This document shows, one piece after another, positions 14,952-29,523 of a stretch of DNA of 29,523 nucleotides. The translations under genes and the position numbers were made by a program. This DNA comes from a virus, in IMG/VR virus record IMGVR_UViG_3300007640_000156, positions 1 to 29,523 of that record. One strand, written 5' to 3'. The notes beneath the pieces were generated by a model. The model ran no database searches, had not been told where the DNA came from, and was given only the letters and a program-made list of their open reading frames with translations. Within the stretch, counting starts at the first letter, position 1; every line of letters starts with the position of its first letter.

Positions 14952-15195
14952 CACTGAGCTCGACGACCTCCACGGTCTACAGGCCGAGGCCCTCAAAGAG
15001 GAGCTGAGGCGACAGAAGGAATCCGGCGAGGGAATCTCCCCAGCCCTACTCGCACAAGTAAACAAGTTTCTGAAGGACAACGGCATCGACCGTCCTAAGG
15101 CAGAGGGCAACGGCCCTGACCTGCTGAACGACGAGCTCGAGGAGCTTGAGTTCGACGAGACAGTAGTTCAATTCGACCAAACAGGAAATTCATAA
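14935..15195 (+). CDS. Terminase small subunit (T7 gp18-like)
   Basis: 86 aa, like T7 gp18 (89 aa). The pattern ALKEELRRQKESGEGISPALLAQ then VNKFLKDNGID (about residues 18-52) is the family hallmark, followed by an acidic tail (NDELEELEFDE). The small subunit selects phage DNA for packaging with the large ATPase subunit. GGAG lies about 10 nt before the ATG. The stop overlaps the next start by one base (TAATG). Confidence 0.87.
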   Translation: MSKATSTELDDLHGLQAEALKEELRRQKESGEGISPALLAQVNKFLKDNGIDRPKAEGNGPDLLNDELEELEFDETVVQFDQTGNS

Positions 15196-16400
15196 TGACG
15201 GTCCATACAAATGCAGCGGGCACTAAGACCGTTGACCCCCGATTCAAGAGCCGCCTCCGCGAAGGCATTCAGAAGGTACTGAAACCCGAAGCCGAGCATT
15301 GGATGAACGGCTGGATTGAGTCCAATGACGTCGTTCAGGGCCACATTGGCTGGAACGTAATGGCCTCGTGTAACGGCGACGTAATCGTTGAAGACGGCGG
15401 AGGCCAGAGCTCTTACGGTGAGGACTTCACCGGGGATACCATCATCAACCTGAGCACCATTGCCCGCTACTACTTCCGTTACGCCCTGATGAAGCTCGTG
15501 GAAGACGGCGACATTGCCAGCTACTCGACTACTGTCGAGAGCATCCTGAGCACCGGCGGGACCCAGATGGGCGGCCTTACGATTGACCACCTGCTGTCCG
15601 GCACTGCCGGCTGGTCTCCGTTCGACGCGTCCCTGTGGGACCTTGGGGACTCATGGTTCAACACGCAGTACACCAAGCAGGACCGCATTGACCTCTTCAA
15701 GGACCTTGCGCCGCTGTCCACGCACGGCGACATCGCGTACTACGCCGATGGTAACCGCGTTAACGATTGGGTAATAGCCCATGTCATCGAAGCGGTCACC
15801 GGCCAGGATTGGCAGGACGCCATTCAGGACGTAGTACTGACCCCGCTAGGCCTCACGGACACCTACCCGACGTACGCTCACGCTCGTCAGGCGGGCCGCG
15901 CCGTCCACCAGCTCGGTCAGGGCGAACTGACCGGCGGTGCAGGAGACCCCCGCGTTCCCTTAGGGTACGTCGAGGGCATCACGCGTGGCACCTACTCGCT
16001 GGACGTCGATTACGGCATCCGAGGCATGTATGGCTCAATCCGCGACCTGCACAAGCTGTTCCGCGCCGGCGTGGTTCTGAATGCCACAAAATGGGGCACG
16101 GACTTCCGCGGTGAGGGCAACTACACCAACACCGCGGGCTGCGGCTTGTTCTATCTGGGCAACCTGCAGGGCGTATCGCCGGCGGTGCCAAACCAGACGA
16201 CGTACATCAACGACGGCAACCTCGGTGGGCGGCTTATCTACTGCCCGACGCAGGATGTATTCGTCACGCTGTTGGAAGCGGGCTTCACGGAGACCGCGGA
16301 CCTCAACGAAGAGACCATCCAGCGTGTCGTGGGTCAGGCCATCACCGGTGAGCAGTTCACCGAGGCTTCCTACATGACGGATGGAGTCTACACAGGCTAA
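15195..16400 (+). CDS. Serine beta-lactamase/penicillin-binding-fold protein with degenerate catalytic motifs
   Basis: 401 aa. Several landmarks match the class C beta-lactamase / D,D-peptidase / esterase superfamily: ALMKLVEDGDI (about 97-107), LTIDHLLSGTAGW (about 128-140), a NDWVIAHVIEAVTGQDW helix (about 190-206) and LTPLGLTDTYP (about 214-224). The active-site motifs are altered: the SxxK position reads STIAR (about 87-91, Lys replaced by Arg), the YxN position reads YAD (about 182-184), and the late KTG/HxG region reads NDGNLGG (about 339-345). Loss of enzyme activity is therefore likely. No signal peptide is seen. It sits between the two terminase genes, where T7 has the Rz spanin gene, and no gp17-like fibre gene exists nearby. 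Receptor-binding, lysis or wall-binding roles are possible. Confidence 0.75.
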   Translation: MTVHTNAAGTKTVDPRFKSRLREGIQKVLKPEAEHWMNGWIESNDVVQGHIGWNVMASCNGDVIVEDGGGQSSYGEDFTGDTIINLSTIARYYFRYALMKLVEDGDIASYSTTVESILSTGGTQMGGLTIDHLLSGTAGWSPFDASLWDLGDSWFNTQYTKQDRIDLFKDLAPLSTHGDIAYYADGNRVNDWVIAHVIEAVTGQDWQDAIQDVVLTPLGLTDTYPTYAHARQAGRAVHQLGQGELTGGAGDPRVPLGYVEGITRGTYSLDVDYGIRGMYGSIRDLHKLFRAGVVLNATKWGTDFRGEGNYTNTAGCGLFYLGNLQGVSPAVPNQTTYINDGNLGGRLIYCPTQDVFVTLLEAGFTETADLNEETIQRVVGQAITGEQFTEASYMTDGVYTG

Positions 16401-18486: not shown

Positions 18487-18500
18487 GGGCCCACCCTAGG
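18487..18500 (+). promoter_or_regulatory. GGGCCCACCCTAGG motif after terL (candidate phage promoter)
   Basis: This 14-mer recurs exactly at 28430-28443, and at both places it is followed within a few bases by a palindromic stem-loop and then a gene. Related shorter forms occur before the capsid gene (GGGCACCCTA near 4015) and before the holin-like gene (CTCCCTAGG near 14709). A promoter for the phage polymerase is the simplest idea, but no T7-consensus sequence is visible. Confidence 0.4.
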
Positions 18501-18504
18501 AGAG

Positions 18505-19060: not shown

Positions 19061-19354
19061 CAGGTGAACCGCCTCTCTCTCCGGCACTTTTTCCCCCATG
19101 GCCTCACGCCGCAACTGAGCGGGACGGGGCCCCTTTCTGGCACGAACGGCGCACACGCAGCGCCAAGCGGGGCCCTTCAAGGGATTGCGGAACCGTTGCG
19201 GGGGCCGCATGGGGCCTAGAGGGGCCGCAAGGGGCCGCCGCCATGGGTGGCCGTCCGTGAGTGTGTACCTGTTTCGACAGACTCCGGCGGGGCCTCTTAA
19301 GGGGCCCTTTCCGGCTCCGCTCCGGCTCACTGGCGGGGCCCGCTCCGGCTGCGG

Positions 19355-19398
19355 TCCGGCGGGGCTCCGGCGGGGCTCCGGCGGGGCTCCGGCGGGGC
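19355..19398 (+). repeat. Four tandem copies of an 11-bp GC repeat
   Basis: The unit TCCGGCGGGGC occurs four times back to back without mismatch (19355, 19366, 19377, 19388). Imperfect copies are scattered upstream (about 19280-19345). The period is close to one helical turn, so a phased protein-binding array is possible; replication slippage is the simpler alternative. Confidence 0.9.
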
Positions 19399-19486
19399 TC
19401 GGTTCGGTGCCACTATAAGAGCAGCCCAAAAGGGCCCGCGGTGGGCCCGCTCCGGCCCTGTTGGTTTTCGCGTTGTTTTCACACCA

Positions 19487-20460: not shown

Positions 20461-20474
20461 CGAGAGGTGCTAAC
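20461..20474 (+). promoter_or_regulatory. Shared 14-nt ribosome-binding site, copy A
   Basis: CGAGAGGTGCTAAC ends 2 nt before the ATG at 20477. Identical copies precede the genes at 21044 and 23401. The exact complement lies in the hairpin loop of the tRNA-like RNA at 28303-28316. The GAGAGGTG part is a strong Shine-Dalgarno; the TGCTAAC part is not needed for ribosome binding, so its conservation suggests an additional role. Confidence 0.85.
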
Positions 20475-20476
20475 TC

Positions 20477-20653
20477 ATGAAAATGTTTGTAATTGAAGGC
20501 CATGTGACCTACCGCGGCGTTGTGCGGAAGGTTCGCGATTTCGTTGATGCACGTAACCGCCGCGATGCACTGAGCAAAGCGGTTGACGCAATGGCAGCCA
20601 TGGGCATCCGGCCCGAGGCTGTACTGAGTCTGGAGGCGCACACCAATGGCTAA
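20477..20653 (+). CDS. First early protein, 58 aa, unknown
   Basis: The ATG at 20477 follows the shared 14-nt ribosome-binding site by 2 nt. The product begins MKMFVIEGHVTYRGVVRKVR and continues FVDARNRRDALSKAVDAMAA; it is a small, mixed-charge protein without Cys or membrane segment. It reads as a beta strand pair followed by a helix, like many small early phage proteins, but I recognise no family. As the first gene after the terminal region it would be among the first to be expressed. It overlaps the next gene by 8 nt. Confidence 0.75.
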   Translation: MKMFVIEGHVTYRGVVRKVRDFVDARNRRDALSKAVDAMAAMGIRPEAVLSLEAHTNG

Positions 20654-21028: not shown

Positions 21029-21042
21029 CGAGAGGTGCTAAC
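21029..21042 (+). promoter_or_regulatory. Shared 14-nt ribosome-binding site, copy B
   Basis: CGAGAGGTGCTAAC ends 1 nt before the ATG at 21044. Here complementarity to the tRNA-like RNA extends two bases further (16 nt, CGAGAGGTGCTAACAA). It fixes the gene start at 21044 rather than at an earlier in-frame codon at 20969. Confidence 0.87.
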
Positions 21043-21043
21043 A

Positions 21044-21790
21044 ATGGCGAATGGAATTGAGGTATGGCGGGGCCCTTCCCGCCTCGACGGGGAGCCTATC
21101 GTGGTCATTGCGACCGGCGTAAAGGGCTCAAGCAAAAACGCCAAGACGGGCGGCATGGTGCAGACCTACATCCTGCGGCAGGACATTGCGCCGCACGAGG
21201 CAGTAAAGGTTGGCGCGGATGCCAGCATCTGCGGCGACTGCAAACACCGCGGCGACGGGACCGGCAAGGGCCGCACGTGCTATGTGACGGTTTTCCAGGG
21301 GCCGCTCAGTACGTGGAAGGCGTGGACCCGCGGGGCCTACCCGATAGCCTCACACGGTGAAGCCCGCCGCACCATGGCCGGCAAGCGTGTACGGCTTGGG
21401 ACCTACGGGGACCCTGCGGCGGTGCCGCTTGAGGTATGGGAGTCTCTTCTGGTCGATGCCTTAGGCTGGACCGGATACACCCACCAGTGGCAGAATCCCA
21501 CGAATGCAGAGTATGCCGACTACCTCATGGCCTCCGCGGATACACCAGAAGAGGCCCGCGAAGCATGGGCCGAGGGCTGGCGCACGTTCCGAGTGTCGAT
21601 GCCGCTGCACGATGCCCGAATGAGCGGCGAGGCTGTCTGCCCTGCATCCGAAGAGGCCGGTAAGAAACTGCAATGTGCGGACTGCATGGCGTGTCACGGC
21701 ACGGCATTAGGCCGCCGAGGCTCTATCACCATCAGGGCGCACGGCAGCAGCGCCGTCATGAAAAACGTAAGAGAGAGGTACGCAGCATGA
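21044..21790 (+). CDS. Early protein with two Cys clusters, unknown
   Basis: 248 aa from ATG 21044, chosen because the shared ribosome-binding site lies immediately upstream; an in-frame start at 20969 lacks one and would run through the hairpin. Two cysteine groups stand out: ICGDCKHRGDGTGKGRTC (about residues 63-80) and CPAS...LQCADCMACHG (about 200-223). Such spacing suggests a zinc- or iron-sulfur-binding site shared between both ends. Similar proteins occur in other phages and plasmids as conserved hypotheticals, to my recollection. No nuclease or helicase motif is visible. It overlaps the next gene by the ATGA motif. Confidence 0.85.
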   Translation: MANGIEVWRGPSRLDGEPIVVIATGVKGSSKNAKTGGMVQTYILRQDIAPHEAVKVGADASICGDCKHRGDGTGKGRTCYVTVFQGPLSTWKAWTRGAYPIASHGEARRTMAGKRVRLGTYGDPAAVPLEVWESLLVDALGWTGYTHQWQNPTNAEYADYLMASADTPEEAREAWAEGWRTFRVSMPLHDARMSGEAVCPASEEAGKKLQCADCMACHGTALGRRGSITIRAHGSSAVMKNVRERYAA

Positions 21791-23385: not shown

Positions 23386-23399
23386 CGAGAGGTGCTAAC
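23386..23399 (+). promoter_or_regulatory. Shared 14-nt ribosome-binding site, copy C
   Basis: CGAGAGGTGCTAAC ends 1 nt before the ATG at 23401. It fixes that start over an in-frame start at 23392, which would lie inside the site. It is identical to copies at 20461 and 21029 and complementary to 28303-28316. Confidence 0.87.
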
Positions 23400-23400
23400 C

Positions 23401-23844
23401 ATGAAAGTCTTTGTCTACTACAACCTGCACAAATCCTGCTGGTCCGTGAGGGCCAGTGACGGCCCCCTCAAGGGCAAGGTGATTGCCCATGCGGGCAGCG
23501 TGTTCTTGCGTGATGCCACCTTCAAGGTCAGCGAGGCTGGCCGGCAGCGGGTGCTGAAGGAGCAGCGCAAGAACGTACACGCCGGTGTCGAGGGCGAACT
23601 GATGGGCCTATATGAAATCCAGAAGCTCCGCTACGAGTTCGAGGTACCGCAGAGCTTCATGCTCTACGCCACCAACGAGGAGTACGGGCGGGGCTACGTC
23701 AGCTACAACCCCTACCGCGGCCCGCACTTCTACCAGAAGGGCCGGGACCTGGATGTACACAAGGCGGACCTCGTGAACCTGCGCACTGACCGGCGCGTGT
23801 ACGCTCGACACATCACCTACCACCCCAAGTACGCTGCTGCCTAA
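23401..23844 (+). CDS. Conserved phage protein, unknown function
   Basis: 147 aa. It begins MKVFVYYNLHKSCWSVRASD, followed by GPLKGKVIAHAGSVFLRDAT and SEAGRQRVLKEQRKNVHAG. This N-terminal block is familiar from conserved hypothetical proteins of phages of proteobacteria. The middle is rich in aromatic residues (GYVSYNPYRGPHFYQK), and it ends in HITYHPKYAAA. No catalytic motif is evident. It follows ribosome-binding site copy C and is thus a predicted target of the antisense RNA. Its first residues (MKVFV) resemble those of the 58-aa protein at 20477 (MKMFV). Confidence 0.85.
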   Translation: MKVFVYYNLHKSCWSVRASDGPLKGKVIAHAGSVFLRDATFKVSEAGRQRVLKEQRKNVHAGVEGELMGLYEIQKLRYEFEVPQSFMLYATNEEYGRGYVSYNPYRGPHFYQKGRDLDVHKADLVNLRTDRRVYARHITYHPKYAAA

Positions 23845-23871: not shown

Positions 23872-24804
23872 ATGAGTGACGCTATCACTTACGGCTCGGT
23901 GTGCTCAGGCATCGAGGCTGCCACCGTGGCATGGGACCCGCTCGGGTTCAAGCCGCAGTGGTTCAGCGAGATTGAGAAGTTCCCTTCCGCCCTGCTTGAG
24001 CAGCGGTACCCACACGTTCCCAACCTCGGGGACATGACGGAGATTAAAAATGACGCACGATTCACAACTCGACCTCTTGACCTGCTCGTCGGAGGCACAC
24101 CATGCCAAGCCTTCAGTGTCGGAGGATTCCGCAAGGGGCTGGCTGACCCGCGTGGCAACTTGGCCCTCGAGTACCTCGCACTTGCTGATATGGCTCGGCC
24201 TCGATGGGTCGTGTGGGAAAACGTCGCCGGAGTCCTTGACTCCAACGGAGGACGGGACTTTGGTTCCTTCCTCGGGGCGCTGGGGAAGCTCGGGTATGGG
24301 TGGAGTTACAGGGTGCTGGACTCTCAGTACTTCGGAGTCGCCCAGCGACGTCGTCGGGTGTTCGTTGTCGGACATCTTGGAACGTGGGCCCCTGCCGCCG
24401 GAGTTCTCTTTGACGGAGCGGGCGCTAAGGGGACATCTCCGCCGGTCCCTACGCTTAACCCAACAGGTGCGAGATTTTTTATGCCAGGAAATCGAGCGCG
24501 TGACCACGAGTGGCCCGAGACGTTAGCCGCACGTGACTACAAGGACCCGCAGGTCGTCATCAACGAGGGCACCATCCGCCGCCTGACTCCGGTCGAGTAC
24601 GAGCGGCTGCAAGGATTCCCCGACGACTACACCCGCATCAACTGGCGGGGCCGAGGGGAGGACAAGTGCCCCAACGGTCCCCGCTACAAGGCGCTGGGTA
24701 ACTCAATGGCTGTCCCCGTCATGCGGTGGATAGGCGAACGCATCAAAACCACGGACGCAATTCTCAAGGAGCAAGGTCATGGACGCACCGCGTTATCTGC
24801 TTAG
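23872..24804 (+). CDS. DNA (cytosine-5) methyltransferase
   Basis: 310 aa with the ordered C5-methyltransferase motifs: I VCSGIEAATVAW (residues 10-21), IV GGTPCQAFSVGG with the catalytic Cys near 77, VI WENVAG near 114-119, VIII QRRRRVFVVGH near 158-168, IX RRLTPVEYERLQGFPDDY near 238-255 and X YKALGNSMAVPV near 274-285. All key residues (Cys, ENV, QRRRR, GN) are present, so it should be active. The segment between VIII and IX, which reads the target, is short, and the specificity cannot be told from sequence. In an early phage operon it most likely protects phage DNA from host restriction. GGAG lies about 10 nt before the ATG. Confidence 0.96.
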   Translation: MSDAITYGSVCSGIEAATVAWDPLGFKPQWFSEIEKFPSALLEQRYPHVPNLGDMTEIKNDARFTTRPLDLLVGGTPCQAFSVGGFRKGLADPRGNLALEYLALADMARPRWVVWENVAGVLDSNGGRDFGSFLGALGKLGYGWSYRVLDSQYFGVAQRRRRVFVVGHLGTWAPAAGVLFDGAGAKGTSPPVPTLNPTGARFFMPGNRARDHEWPETLAARDYKDPQVVINEGTIRRLTPVEYERLQGFPDDYTRINWRGRGEDKCPNGPRYKALGNSMAVPVMRWIGERIKTTDAILKEQGHGRTALSA

Positions 24805-27121: not shown

Positions 27122-28126
27122 ATGCGATTGACAACACGCAGTAACGGTATGTTCGTACTGGAATACCGTGACGTAAACGGCACCCGCCGGCGCAAGTCGC
27201 TGGGTACCAAGGACCGCAAGCAAGCCGAGCAGAAGGCCGGTGCCTACCTGCGAGGCGAGCACGTGGATGGAGGTGTGGCCGGAGTGCACACCCTCGAGGA
27301 ATCCTTACGCAACACCTACTCCCGCATCTGGGACAAGCAGAAGGACGCCATGCGGAAGGCCAGCATGGTCAACGCACTGTGCCGTGATATAGGACACTGG
27401 AAGTTGCACGAGGTGACGTACGAGAAGCTCACCACGTGGGCCGAAGAGCTGCACCAAGGGGGCAACTCGGGTGCCACCATCAACCGCAAGCTGGCGTGTA
27501 TCAGCAAGACACTCAACGAGGCGGTGAAGCTGGGTCACCTCAAGGCGGTGCCGGCGATGCCTCGGTACAAGGAGGCACCTCCGAAGGACCGCTACCTATC
27601 CCGCGAGGAGGAACTCAAGCTGCTGAGGGCCACCAAGCAGATGCAGTGGGACTACGCTACCCAGCGGGGTATGCACAACCTGCTCGTGTTCCTGCTGGAC
27701 ACTGGCTGTCGCTTTGGTGAAGCCATGCGGGAGCTCGAGAAGAACCAGCCCACCGGCTTCACCATCACCATCAGTGTCAACAAGGCCGACAAGCCTCGCA
27801 CCATACCGCTCACATCCAGGGCCCGGCAGGCGCTGGTCGAGGGCTGGCCGGTGTGGGATGCCAGCTCTGCAGGCCACCGGTTCAAGAACCTGTGCCGGCG
27901 GGCAGGGACTGAGGGCGTCACGCTGCACACCATGCGGCACACCTGCGCGTCCCGTCTGGTTGCCGGCGGTATGGACCTGTACCGTGTGAGGGATTGGCTC
28001 GGCCACCGCACCATCACCACGACGGAGCGGTACGCTCACCTGAATCCCGACGCACTGAATGAGGGCGTGGCCCTGCTCGAGGCTGCCGGCGTTAATCCTG
28101 AGCCGACTCTCTCACTTGTGAGATAG
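27122..28126 (+). CDS. int: Tyrosine recombinase / phage integrase
   Basis: 334 aa with the complete catalytic set: Arg in TGCRFGEAM (R197), Lys in NKADKPRTIPL (near 221-224), HxxR in LHTMRHTCASRL (H269, R272), His in WLGHRT (H295) and Tyr nucleophile in ERYAHL (Y304). The N-terminal part has an arm-binding-like basic segment (RNGTRRRKSLGTKDRKQAE-like, residues 17-37), then a core-binding helical domain (about 55-150). It starts 1 nt after the regulator, with GAGG upstream. The tRNA half and short repeats just downstream fit its attachment site. Its position before the RNA polymerase gene is as in T7-like podoviruses with integrases. Confidence 0.95.
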   Translation: MRLTTRSNGMFVLEYRDVNGTRRRKSLGTKDRKQAEQKAGAYLRGEHVDGGVAGVHTLEESLRNTYSRIWDKQKDAMRKASMVNALCRDIGHWKLHEVTYEKLTTWAEELHQGGNSGATINRKLACISKTLNEAVKLGHLKAVPAMPRYKEAPPKDRYLSREEELKLLRATKQMQWDYATQRGMHNLLVFLLDTGCRFGEAMRELEKNQPTGFTITISVNKADKPRTIPLTSRARQALVEGWPVWDASSAGHRFKNLCRRAGTEGVTLHTMRHTCASRLVAGGMDLYRVRDWLGHRTITTTERYAHLNPDALNEGVALLEAAGVNPEPTLSLVR

Positions 28127-28185
28127 ACGACGCAACTTTGAGACACCTTGGATTATTCCACTGGTGCAAGCAACTGTGCCAAAGT

Positions 28186-28214
28186 GTGACACAGACGAGC
28201 AGCATGGGTAGAAT
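28186..28214 (+). promoter_or_regulatory. Sigma70-type promoter for the tRNA-like RNA
   Basis: GTGACA (5/6 match), a 17-bp spacer and TAGAAT (5/6 match) predict a start near 28221, about 21 nt upstream of the first base of the tRNA half. This is the best sigma70-type match I found in the window. It indicates that the element is transcribed by the host polymerase, and a short leader would need RNase P processing as for a normal tRNA. Confidence 0.7.
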
Positions 28215-28241
28215 TGTCCCTCTGAAAGCTAGTAAATACAC

Positions 28242-28285
28242 GGGCCTGTAGCTCAGTTGGTTAGAGCAGGGGACTCATAATCCCC
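28242..28285 (+). other. attP: Probable attP core (5' half of a tRNA gene)
   Basis: Forty-four bases with the sequence of a bacterial CAU tRNA gene from base 1 to the end of the anticodon stem lie directly downstream of an intact integrase gene. Tyrosine integrases commonly cross over in tRNA anticodon arms, and GGGGA-CTCATAA-TCCCC is a symmetric core. Carrying the 5' rather than the 3' half is less common; it needs a phage-borne promoter to keep the host tRNA expressed, and one is seen at 28186-28214. Confidence 0.7.
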
Positions 28286-28346
28286 CGCCACACGAGGAGT
28301 TTGTTAGCACCTCTCGCTTCGTGTGCCACTGGGTTACGGGCCCACC
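28242..28346 (+). ncRNA. tRNA-like chimeric RNA presenting an antisense loop
   Basis: 28242-28285 is a flawless 5' tRNA half: acceptor strand GGGCCTG, T8 A9, D stem GCTC/GAGC with GG in the loop, A26, anticodon stem GGGGA/TCCCC and loop CTCATAA (anticodon CAT; tRNA-Met or lysidine-type Ile). CGGGCCC at 28337-28343 pairs with all seven acceptor bases (one G-U) and is followed by ACC. In between there is no T arm; instead a 9-bp stem (28289-28297 with 28317-28325) carries a 19-nt loop (28298-28316). Loop bases 28303-28316 (GTTAGCACCTCTCG) are the exact complement of the ribosome-binding sites at 20461, 21029 and 23386. It is proposed to be an antisense repressor on a tRNA scaffold; not a functional tRNA. 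Confidence 0.7.
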
Positions 28347-28429
28347 TTTCCCAGACCCATTAACCGTGCCCATTCAGGGGTGTGCCACTGTGCCTCTGAC
28401 TGTGCCACGTGTGGGTGTGTCCCATGTGC

Positions 28430-28443
28430 GGGCCCACCCTAGG
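28430..28443 (+). promoter_or_regulatory. GGGCCCACCCTAGG motif before the RNA polymerase gene
   Basis: Second exact copy of the 14-mer found at 18487-18500, again followed immediately by a palindromic stem-loop. It lies 85 nt upstream of the polymerase start, a place where auto-regulation of polymerase transcription would act. Confidence 0.4.
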
Positions 28444-28492
28444 GGGAATGACCACTTAAGAGAATCTTAAGGACCTCTTAAGGATTCCCCTT
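28441..28492 (+). repeat. CTTAAG-repeat stem-loop before the RNA polymerase gene
   Basis: GGGGAAT (28443-28449) pairs with ATTCCCC (28484-28490), extendable by two pairs. Inside are three CTTAAG palindromes at 28455, 28466 and 28477, spaced 11 bp; the first two also form a perfect 7-bp hairpin CTTAAGA-GAA-TCTTAAG. The 11-bp period and palindromic units could bind a protein on one DNA face, or form an RNase III-type RNA structure in the polymerase leader. Confidence 0.65.
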
Positions 28493-28528
28493 ACGTATCC
28501 CCTAAAGACATCCTATGGAGGATTACTG

Positions 28529-29523
28529 ATGACGGTAGTCATGGAAGAACGACAGCTCGAACTGGAAGCGGAAGCACTCGGCATGGGTGCCCTTCGCTAC
28601 CGCAAAGAGAAGCCTATGCCATGGCGGGAGGAAGCAGCCCGTCTGTCTGAGCTCACCGAGCTGCCGCCCGGAAAGGAACTCATCCGTCGTGCCGTGCCGG
28701 TTCTCGCTAAGGCCCTCGAGGAGGACTTCGAGAAGGTCGAGGCAGGTGAGGCAGGCTACAAGCACTCCGCCTACTCACGCATCACAGGTGCTGACCCATG
28801 GGCACTGGCCTACATCGCCTGTCGTGTGTGTATCAACTCACTGTCGGCTCCGGCCATGCTGCAGACCATCTTGGTCCGCGTAGGTCAGCAGGTATGTGAC
28901 CACCTGCAGTTCGAGGAGCTGGCCCAGACCTCACCTGGATTGTACGAGGTCATCAACCGCAAGCTCTCCCGCACCACCAAGGGGAAGACTCGTGCCCGCA
29001 TCCTTCGGGATGCCACACGGTACTCCGAGGTGCACTGGGAGGAGTGGGATGCGCATGACAAGTTCCGCGTTGGTGAGTTTCTCGTCTTCCGGTTCATCGA
29101 CTACTGCAACCTGATGGAAGTCACCGACTCCAACAACACCCGCCGCAGCACCAAGCGGCTGACACCCACCGCACGGACTCAGGAGTGGCTCGACAAGGCT
29201 CACTCACGGTCCGAGCTGATGTCTCCGGTGCTCATGCCAATGGTATGCAAGCCTCGTAAGTGGTCCAACCCACTCAACGGGGGCTACCTCACTATCCGCC
29301 GGTACCTCGTGAAGACACTGAGCGCCGGCTATCGTGACGAGCTGTTCTCCATCGAGATGCCTGAGGTCTACGCCGCCCTGAACGCAGCGCAGGAGACGGG
29401 CTGGCGTGTCAACAGCCGTGTGCTCGGCGTGATGCGTCAGGTATGGGACAACGGCGGTGCGCTGGGCAAGCTGCCTCCCCGTGAGGATGCCCCTCTGCCG
29501 GCCCGTACGTGGGCTGAGGGCGA
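28529..29523 (+). CDS. T7-like single-subunit DNA-directed RNA polymerase, N-terminal part (3' end outside window)
   Basis: The frame is open from ATG 28529 to the window edge (331 codons). GGAGG lies 7 nt upstream. The visible part has the N-terminal domain pattern of T7 RNA polymerase: a start rich in Glu/Arg helix (MEERQLELEAEALGMGALRY), WALAYIACRVCINSL near residues 91-105, SRSELMSPVLMPMVCKPRKW near 229-248, NPLNGGYLTIR, EMPEVYAALNAAQETGWRVN near 278-297 and a VWDNGGALGKLPPRED block near 307-322. T7 RNA polymerase is 883 aa, so the palm and catalytic residues lie beyond the window. It would transcribe the middle and late genes. In T7 it is also the last main early gene. Confidence 0.95.
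   Translation, partial: MTVVMEERQLELEAEALGMGALRYRKEKPMPWREEAARLSELTELPPGKELIRRAVPVLAKALEEDFEKVEAGEAGYKHSAYSRITGADPWALAYIACRVCINSLSAPAMLQTILVRVGQQVCDHLQFEELAQTSPGLYEVINRKLSRTTKGKTRARILRDATRYSEVHWEEWDAHDKFRVGEFLVFRFIDYCNLMEVTDSNNTRRSTKRLTPTARTQEWLDKAHSRSELMSPVLMPMVCKPRKWSNPLNGGYLTIRRYLVKTLSAGYRDELFSIEMPEVYAALNAAQETGWRVNSRVLGVMRQVWDNGGALGKLPPREDAPLPARTWAEG

Follow-up and report, generated by a model that had tools for sequence, protein, structure and literature searches.

The phage and its integrase-RNA polymerase region

The DNA analysed here, referred to at its full length as the window, is a virus contig of 29,523 nt. It represents a temperate T7-like podovirus. Besides a T7-type terminase and a phage head-to-tail connecting protein, it encodes a MarR-like regulator, a tyrosine integrase (int) and a T7-like RNA polymerase (RNAP). 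The nearest phages by terminase showed just 50-55% identity to the window phage, and no near relative was found in the viral collection by integrase (using an int pattern search) or by capsid, where the best match had 42% identity. A prophage search at E<=1e-30 in 47 genomes from the order of a tRNA-matching host found none; having no positive control, it is uninformative.

The features of the region from int to RNAP, which include a sequence complementary to a start-associated sequence (SAS, see below) and a putative integrase attachment site (attP), are as follows.

27122..28126, + strand: tyrosine integrase gene, int (PF00589)
28175..28181, + strand: TGTGCCA, candidate integrase arm-type site, P arm
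28186..28214, + strand: sigma70-like promoter GTGACA-17-TAGAAT (10/12 match), 27 nt before tRNA nt 1
28242..28284, + strand: putative attP core, a 43-nt exact match to the tRNA-Met(CAU) 5' half of Gammaproteobacteria; also the 5' strand of the putative RNA
28285..28346, + strand: phage-specific pseudo-3' half of the putative RNA
28289..28325, + strand: 9-bp hairpin (stem 28289-28297/28317-28325) with a 19-nt loop (28298-28316)
28303..28316, + strand: anti-SAS, 14 loop nt exactly complementary to all three SAS copies
28322..28328, + strand: TGTGCCA, candidate arm-type site, P' arm, within the hairpin 3' strand
28328..28343, + strand: 3' strand, 16 contiguous pairs with tRNA nt 1-16 (28242-28257), 3 of them G-U
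28381..28387, + strand: TGTGCCA, candidate arm-type site, P' arm
28401..28407, + strand: TGTGCCA, candidate arm-type site, P' arm
28529..29523, + strand: T7-like RNA polymerase gene, RNAP, cut by the window end

Some other elements of the window may be recorded here. The sequence GGGCCCACCCTAGGRG, a candidate phage RNA polymerase promoter, occurs twice, once before the structures of the gap between terL and the early genes (18487-18502) and once before the RNAP gene (28430-28445). The same gap, which is 2 kb long, carries four tandem GC-rich 11-bp copies of GCTCCGGCGGG (19342-19400). In the structural region, a gene at 15195-16400 encodes a beta-lactamase-family protein (PF00144, serine hydrolase fold), for which we consider a role as virion or surface esterase likelier than one in resistance.

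A start-associated sequence before three early genes

We observed that a 14-nt sequence, CGAGAGGTGCTAAC, occurs on the plus strand at 20461, 21029 and 23386, in each case immediately before a gene.

20461..20474, + strand: SAS copy 1; the ATG of a 58-aa gene (20477-20653) comes after 2 nt
21029..21042, + strand: SAS copy 2; the ATG of gene 21044-21790 (phrog_2554) comes after 1 nt, and the complementarity to the hairpin loop extends to 16 nt
23386..23399, + strand: SAS copy 3; the ATG of gene 23401-23844 (Phage_L5_gp82 family) comes after 1 nt

This is the only dispersed 14-mer with at least three copies in the window. Its exact reverse complement is found at 28303-28316, and all other window sites have at least two mismatches. 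The preliminary description of this DNA had reported the three copies before starts, the exact complement within a 19-nt hairpin loop and the 9-bp stem enclosing it, and we could confirm all of these features. The site at 28316 was also considered as a minus-strand ribosome-binding site (RBS); this was rejected, as no start codon lies in range. A gene for a C-5 cytosine DNA methylase (23872-24804), also among the early genes, lies immediately 3' of the third SAS gene.

SAS motifs have been described in the cluster K mycobacteriophages, as a conserved asymmetric 13-14-nt motif that some of the non-structural genes share at their RBS (PMC3203893). The class is defined by several non-structural genes having one and the same asymmetric 13-14-mer at the RBS, and the window has three exact copies placed 1-2 nt before ATG. 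We therefore conclude that the window 14-mer is an SAS. It is alike in kind to the cluster K motif, but the sequence differs, the phages are unrelated, and there are 3 copies as against 11-19. The SAS reaches beyond the part that pairs with 16S rRNA. No intermediate copies were seen before starts in the window, and a search for the 14-mer followed by ATG across all viral contigs gave a single match, which was unrelated.

The tRNA half as an attachment core

The 43-nt sequence begins 116 nt after int. An exact copy is present in no fewer than 117 genome contigs, most of them from Gammaproteobacteria, and in each of them the identity ends at nt 43. Four of the five TGTGCCA copies of the window fall within 235 bp around this core, and relatives, too, have repeats of this kind after int, a pattern that would be expected of arm-type sites. 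When we built mock junctions with host 3' halves, ARAGORN found tRNA-Met in 10/10 attR and in 0/10 attL sequences. From these sequence comparisons, the tRNA half is best explained as the core of attP. The upstream promoter at 28186-28214, which the preliminary description had correctly pointed out, would serve the rebuilt host tRNA at attR.

The arrangement of a tyrosine integrase before a T7-like RNAP gene, with tRNA sequence beside int, is shared with LUZ100, YIMV22061, TRX32-1 and IMG/VR relatives. Many loci of related integrase-bearing T7-like phages have a complete tRNA-Leu just 3' of int, as is the case in the LUZ100-type phages, whereas in the window the tRNA-Met sequence stops after its 5' half and gives way to a self-pairing, unrelated 3' part. 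Attachment sites in which tRNA-Leu, tRNA-Arg or tRNA-Met is represented beside int by its 5' half alone were seen at L018:10350, L021:9634, L061:1895 and L008:1587. A pattern search for an over-long tRNA-Met half returned one attP (L008) and one chance match (L007). The pseudo-3' halves of the other half-tRNA attPs showed no excess pairing to the tRNA half. In Rhizobium phage TRX32-1 (L006:884-955), a match to the type II hammerhead ribozyme was seen below threshold (32 bits, threshold 37).

In tRNA-dependent lysogeny, a phage that integrates into a tRNA gene must see to the tRNA supply (Guerrero-Bustamante and Hatfull 2024, PMC10865867). The window likewise has a tRNA-gene site, but with this phage the tRNA is made whole again at the mock attR through the 43-nt core, and we detected no complementing phage tRNA in the window.

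The RNA is predicted to fold as a long hairpin

The preliminary description had proposed a tRNA 5' half closed by a matching acceptor strand. The half is indeed present; the 3' match, however, is not limited to the acceptor and consists of 16 contiguous pairs, a length that was reached in 0/3000 shuffles of the 3' part. The minimum-energy fold was predicted at -53.1 kcal/mol, as against -21.5 kcal/mol for the best fold in which the acceptor, D and anticodon arms were forced, and it combines the 16-pair stem with the 9-bp hairpin, which bears the 19-nt loop, and with an anticodon-like arm. As the 16 contiguous pairs go beyond the acceptor, the structure of minimum energy is not a cloverleaf but a long hairpin carrying a side arm. 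The fold energy of the RNA had a z of -4.8, and of -6.1 when the 5' half was held fixed.

The Rfam tRNA model scored 28242-28284 at 30.4 bits (threshold 29), and ARAGORN found 0 tRNA genes in the window. A functional tRNA or tRNA-like scaffold was rejected on the basis of the fold energies and the ARAGORN result. The earlier suggestion of a tRNA-like scaffold processed by RNase P was not supported, the half being best explained as the attP core. In the predicted fold the 16 pairs sequester the tRNA 5' strand, and the RNA departs from the tRNA form.

A stem as stable as this could also act as an insulator, at which transcripts arriving from int or the host tRNA promoter would be ended or processed ahead of the RNAP gene at 28529. 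Its position, 3' of int and 5' of RNAP, is that of a LUZ100 terminator to which control of lysogeny has been ascribed (PMC10134795). We consider this role improbable, since a U-tract is absent, no terminator-like site was found (0 intrinsic terminators, searched as a GC-rich hairpin with a U run, in 28000-28600), and the sequence of the loop is left unexplained. The reading of the hairpin itself as a terminator was rejected for want of a U run.

Pairing of the loop with the three leaders

The loop was predicted to pair with the three target leaders at a mean of -27.5 kcal/mol, and the pairing covered the Shine-Dalgarno segment in all three. Among the other window starts with a Shine-Dalgarno-like core, 0/34 reached the SAS median of pairing energy, and none of 200 shuffled loops was as good as the real loop at pairing with the SAS. 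The loop was also by far the best non-coding match in the window (z -7.7), in a ranking where the coding mask hid the main hairpins of the relatives L009 and G078 (see below), so that those rows carry no weight.

Exact pairing alone leaves the sense of the regulation unfixed. The SAS mRNAs might titrate the RNA, or the pairing might protect or activate the mRNAs; we regard such a reverse direction as highly improbable, because the Shine-Dalgarno segment is covered in all three leaders, and this normally blocks initiation.

We further estimated how often such a match would arise by chance. The preliminary description had held that a 14-mer match is very unlikely in a window of this size. As a general statement this was too strong, as two exact dispersed 14-mer inverted pairs unrelated to the SAS occur in the window; it holds for the triplicated motif, for which the chance of a complement anywhere in the window is about 1e-4. 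The longest SAS complement in 3000 shuffles of the int-RNAP gap was 10 nt.

These numbers bear on the view that the locus is an attP and nothing else. In that case the hairpin would be two inverted arm-type sites, and the 14-nt match would have arisen by coincidence or as an inverted copy not under selection. The attP anatomy is well supported, the arm-type motif GTGTGCCAC does sit in the hairpin 3' strand, and the unrelated inverted pairs just mentioned show that 14-mers of this kind occur. The complement, however, is to the sole dispersed triplicated 14-mer, at a chance of about 1e-4 even before the match is required to fill a loop, and neither the 16-pair stem (0/3000) nor the parallel hairpins of L009 and its kin would be explained. 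An attP alone therefore appears unlikely to us.

Hairpins with anti-SAS tips in T7-like relatives

Start-linked repeated motifs, different in each phage, were common in the T7-like group. Among the integrase-bearing T7-like contigs, L009, L339 (BB8), L066, L050/L053/L055, L036, L016 and L012 each have their own 11-15-nt motif just before 3-11 early genes. SAS-like motifs thus look common outside the actinobacteriophages.

The contig L009, which was the best integrase match, has the SAS ACAAGGGAGACCACC ahead of 10 genes. We observed that a 12-nt complement of this SAS lies at the tip of the strongest hairpin in its terL-early region, the tip being partly paired in the predicted fold. A tip scan recovered the L009 kin (L526, L529/L542 and L538; terL 73-77% nt identity), with the same tip directly after terL. 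Among these phages the 22-nt tip anchor is invariant, and the identity of the 28-nt 5' arms from one phage to another is only 29-39%. Nevertheless, all of the hairpins fold at -54.6 to -59.6 kcal/mol, and at most 1/200 arm-shuffled controls were as stable. In G078, the one L009 kin read as a genome-length contig, we counted 9 start-linked SAS copies. The identical 22-nt tip sits there on an unrelated, fully paired stem, as it does in two further kin; in the early region of G078 this is the single hairpin complement of the SAS on the transcribed strand. We take these comparisons as good evidence that the hairpin of L009 and its kin is a selected RNA with an anti-SAS tip.

Across the start-linked repeats of 26 contig-strands, a complement beyond chance by length was found only in the window (14 nt, ~1e-4 expected) and in L009 (12 nt, 0.011 expected). 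Most other phages with repeated start motifs had no complement above chance.

The 14-mer might instead be a protein site, either for an SAS-binding translational regulator or as a stoperator-like DNA site, with the attP copy as a decoy or an extra operator. Asymmetric repeated 13-14-mers of phages can be protein sites, for example the L5 stoperators, as far as these are cited in PMC3203893, and the SAS is longer than its 16S rRNA-pairing part. A protein that binds the mRNA, on the other hand, would not recognise the complement, and it is the complement and not the motif that the attP loop exposes on the transcribed strand. In the L009 kin, moreover, the tip stays constant and the stem may vary provided that pairing is kept, which points to an RNA. 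For these reasons we think it improbable that the 14-mer is a protein site.

The reverse SAS of cluster K mycobacteriophages

Four K1 phages carry one reverse SAS copy, away from any start, and some cluster K copies have an extended SAS (ESAS) with 17-bp inverted repeats upstream (PMC3203893 for the reverse copies). We found that the K1 reverse SAS forms the loop of a hairpin of ~18 bp between right-end genes. In the K1 phages CrimD and Anaya (L497:40836 and L496:41871), the hairpin that holds the single reverse SAS as its loop is conserved. Both-sided changes were seen in 2/18 pairs of the K1 hairpin, and other subclusters retain its stem around different loops that are rich in pyrimidines. 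In AnnaSerena (cluster EF), no reverse SAS was found within two mismatches.

Our prediction, fixed beforehand, was that the cluster K loop and SAS change together. This failed in four phages, Amgine, Ekdilam, Tierra and Shandong1, where the homologous hairpin has another loop and the standard SAS is kept in 4/4; in 3/4 of them the loop-SAS pairing was no better than with shuffled loops. The loop changes in cluster K, along with the few above-chance complements elsewhere, indicate that the pairing is either not general or has been lost in several lineages. Divergence of loop and RBS without compensation had been named in the preliminary description as evidence that would speak against an antisense RNA. 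Such divergence is seen in part of cluster K, whereas L009 and G078 keep the tip and SAS together, with covarying stems.

A possible antisense RNA embedded in attP

We propose, at a probability of roughly 0.6, that an attP-embedded antisense RNA acts in trans on the SAS to block translation of the three early genes. A hairpin RNA of ~105 nt would be formed from the phage sequence after the core, with its 19-nt loop exactly antisense to the 14-nt SAS. Acting in trans, the loop would pair with the SAS and cover the Shine-Dalgarno sequence, so that translation of the three genes would stop and lytic early expression would be limited. Since tRNA-Met was rebuilt at the mock attR and not at attL, the host tRNA-Met promoter would, in a lysogen, drive the RNA at attL, and the phage promoter the rebuilt tRNA at attR. 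The element, the exact complementarity, the predicted fold, the attP anatomy and the parallel hairpin of L009 and its kin are features read from sequence, and from them we infer the transcription of the RNA and the translational block. The core of the preliminary description, a structured RNA whose loop is antisense to repeated start motifs, is supported by the -27.5 kcal/mol pairing and by the same design, in another sequence, in L009 and its kin and in the K1 phages.

The similar hairpins in other phages suggest what may be a general way of switching off genes that carry a start motif. More tentatively, and in our view with the odds somewhat against it, unrelated phage lineages might control an early regulon by a pair made of a phage-specific SAS and one antisense hairpin RNA. 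In the present phage this RNA would lie in attP on a tRNA 5' half, where the host tRNA promoter, after integration, would couple lysogeny to early-gene repression.

Close known systems are the c4 antisense RNA of phages P1 and P7 and the CI RNA of satellite phage P4. The c4 RNA is a small RNA with complementary segments, probably in loops, that pairs around an RBS and blocks translation in immunity (PMC12197685). It is the nearest known case in action, being antisense at a ribosome-binding site as the window RNA would be. However, c4 targets the ant message, whereas the window RNA matches three dispersed genes, is located at attP and takes its 5' strand from a tRNA half. What is new is thus the matching of one RNA to several genes through an SAS, and its place in attP with the tRNA half as one strand. 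We found no published proposal of an antisense RNA to SAS in the open-access papers searched.

The role of SAS has been open since 2011, and it was still called unknown in 2024 and 2025. An anti-SAS hairpin RNA offers a concrete and testable answer to this question, both in the culturable mycobacteriophages and in the present, uncultured phage. Should the attP version work as we propose, integration itself would turn on an immunity RNA from a host promoter. This would be a simple tie of insertion to repression in the T7-like phages, whose control of lysogeny is poorly understood.
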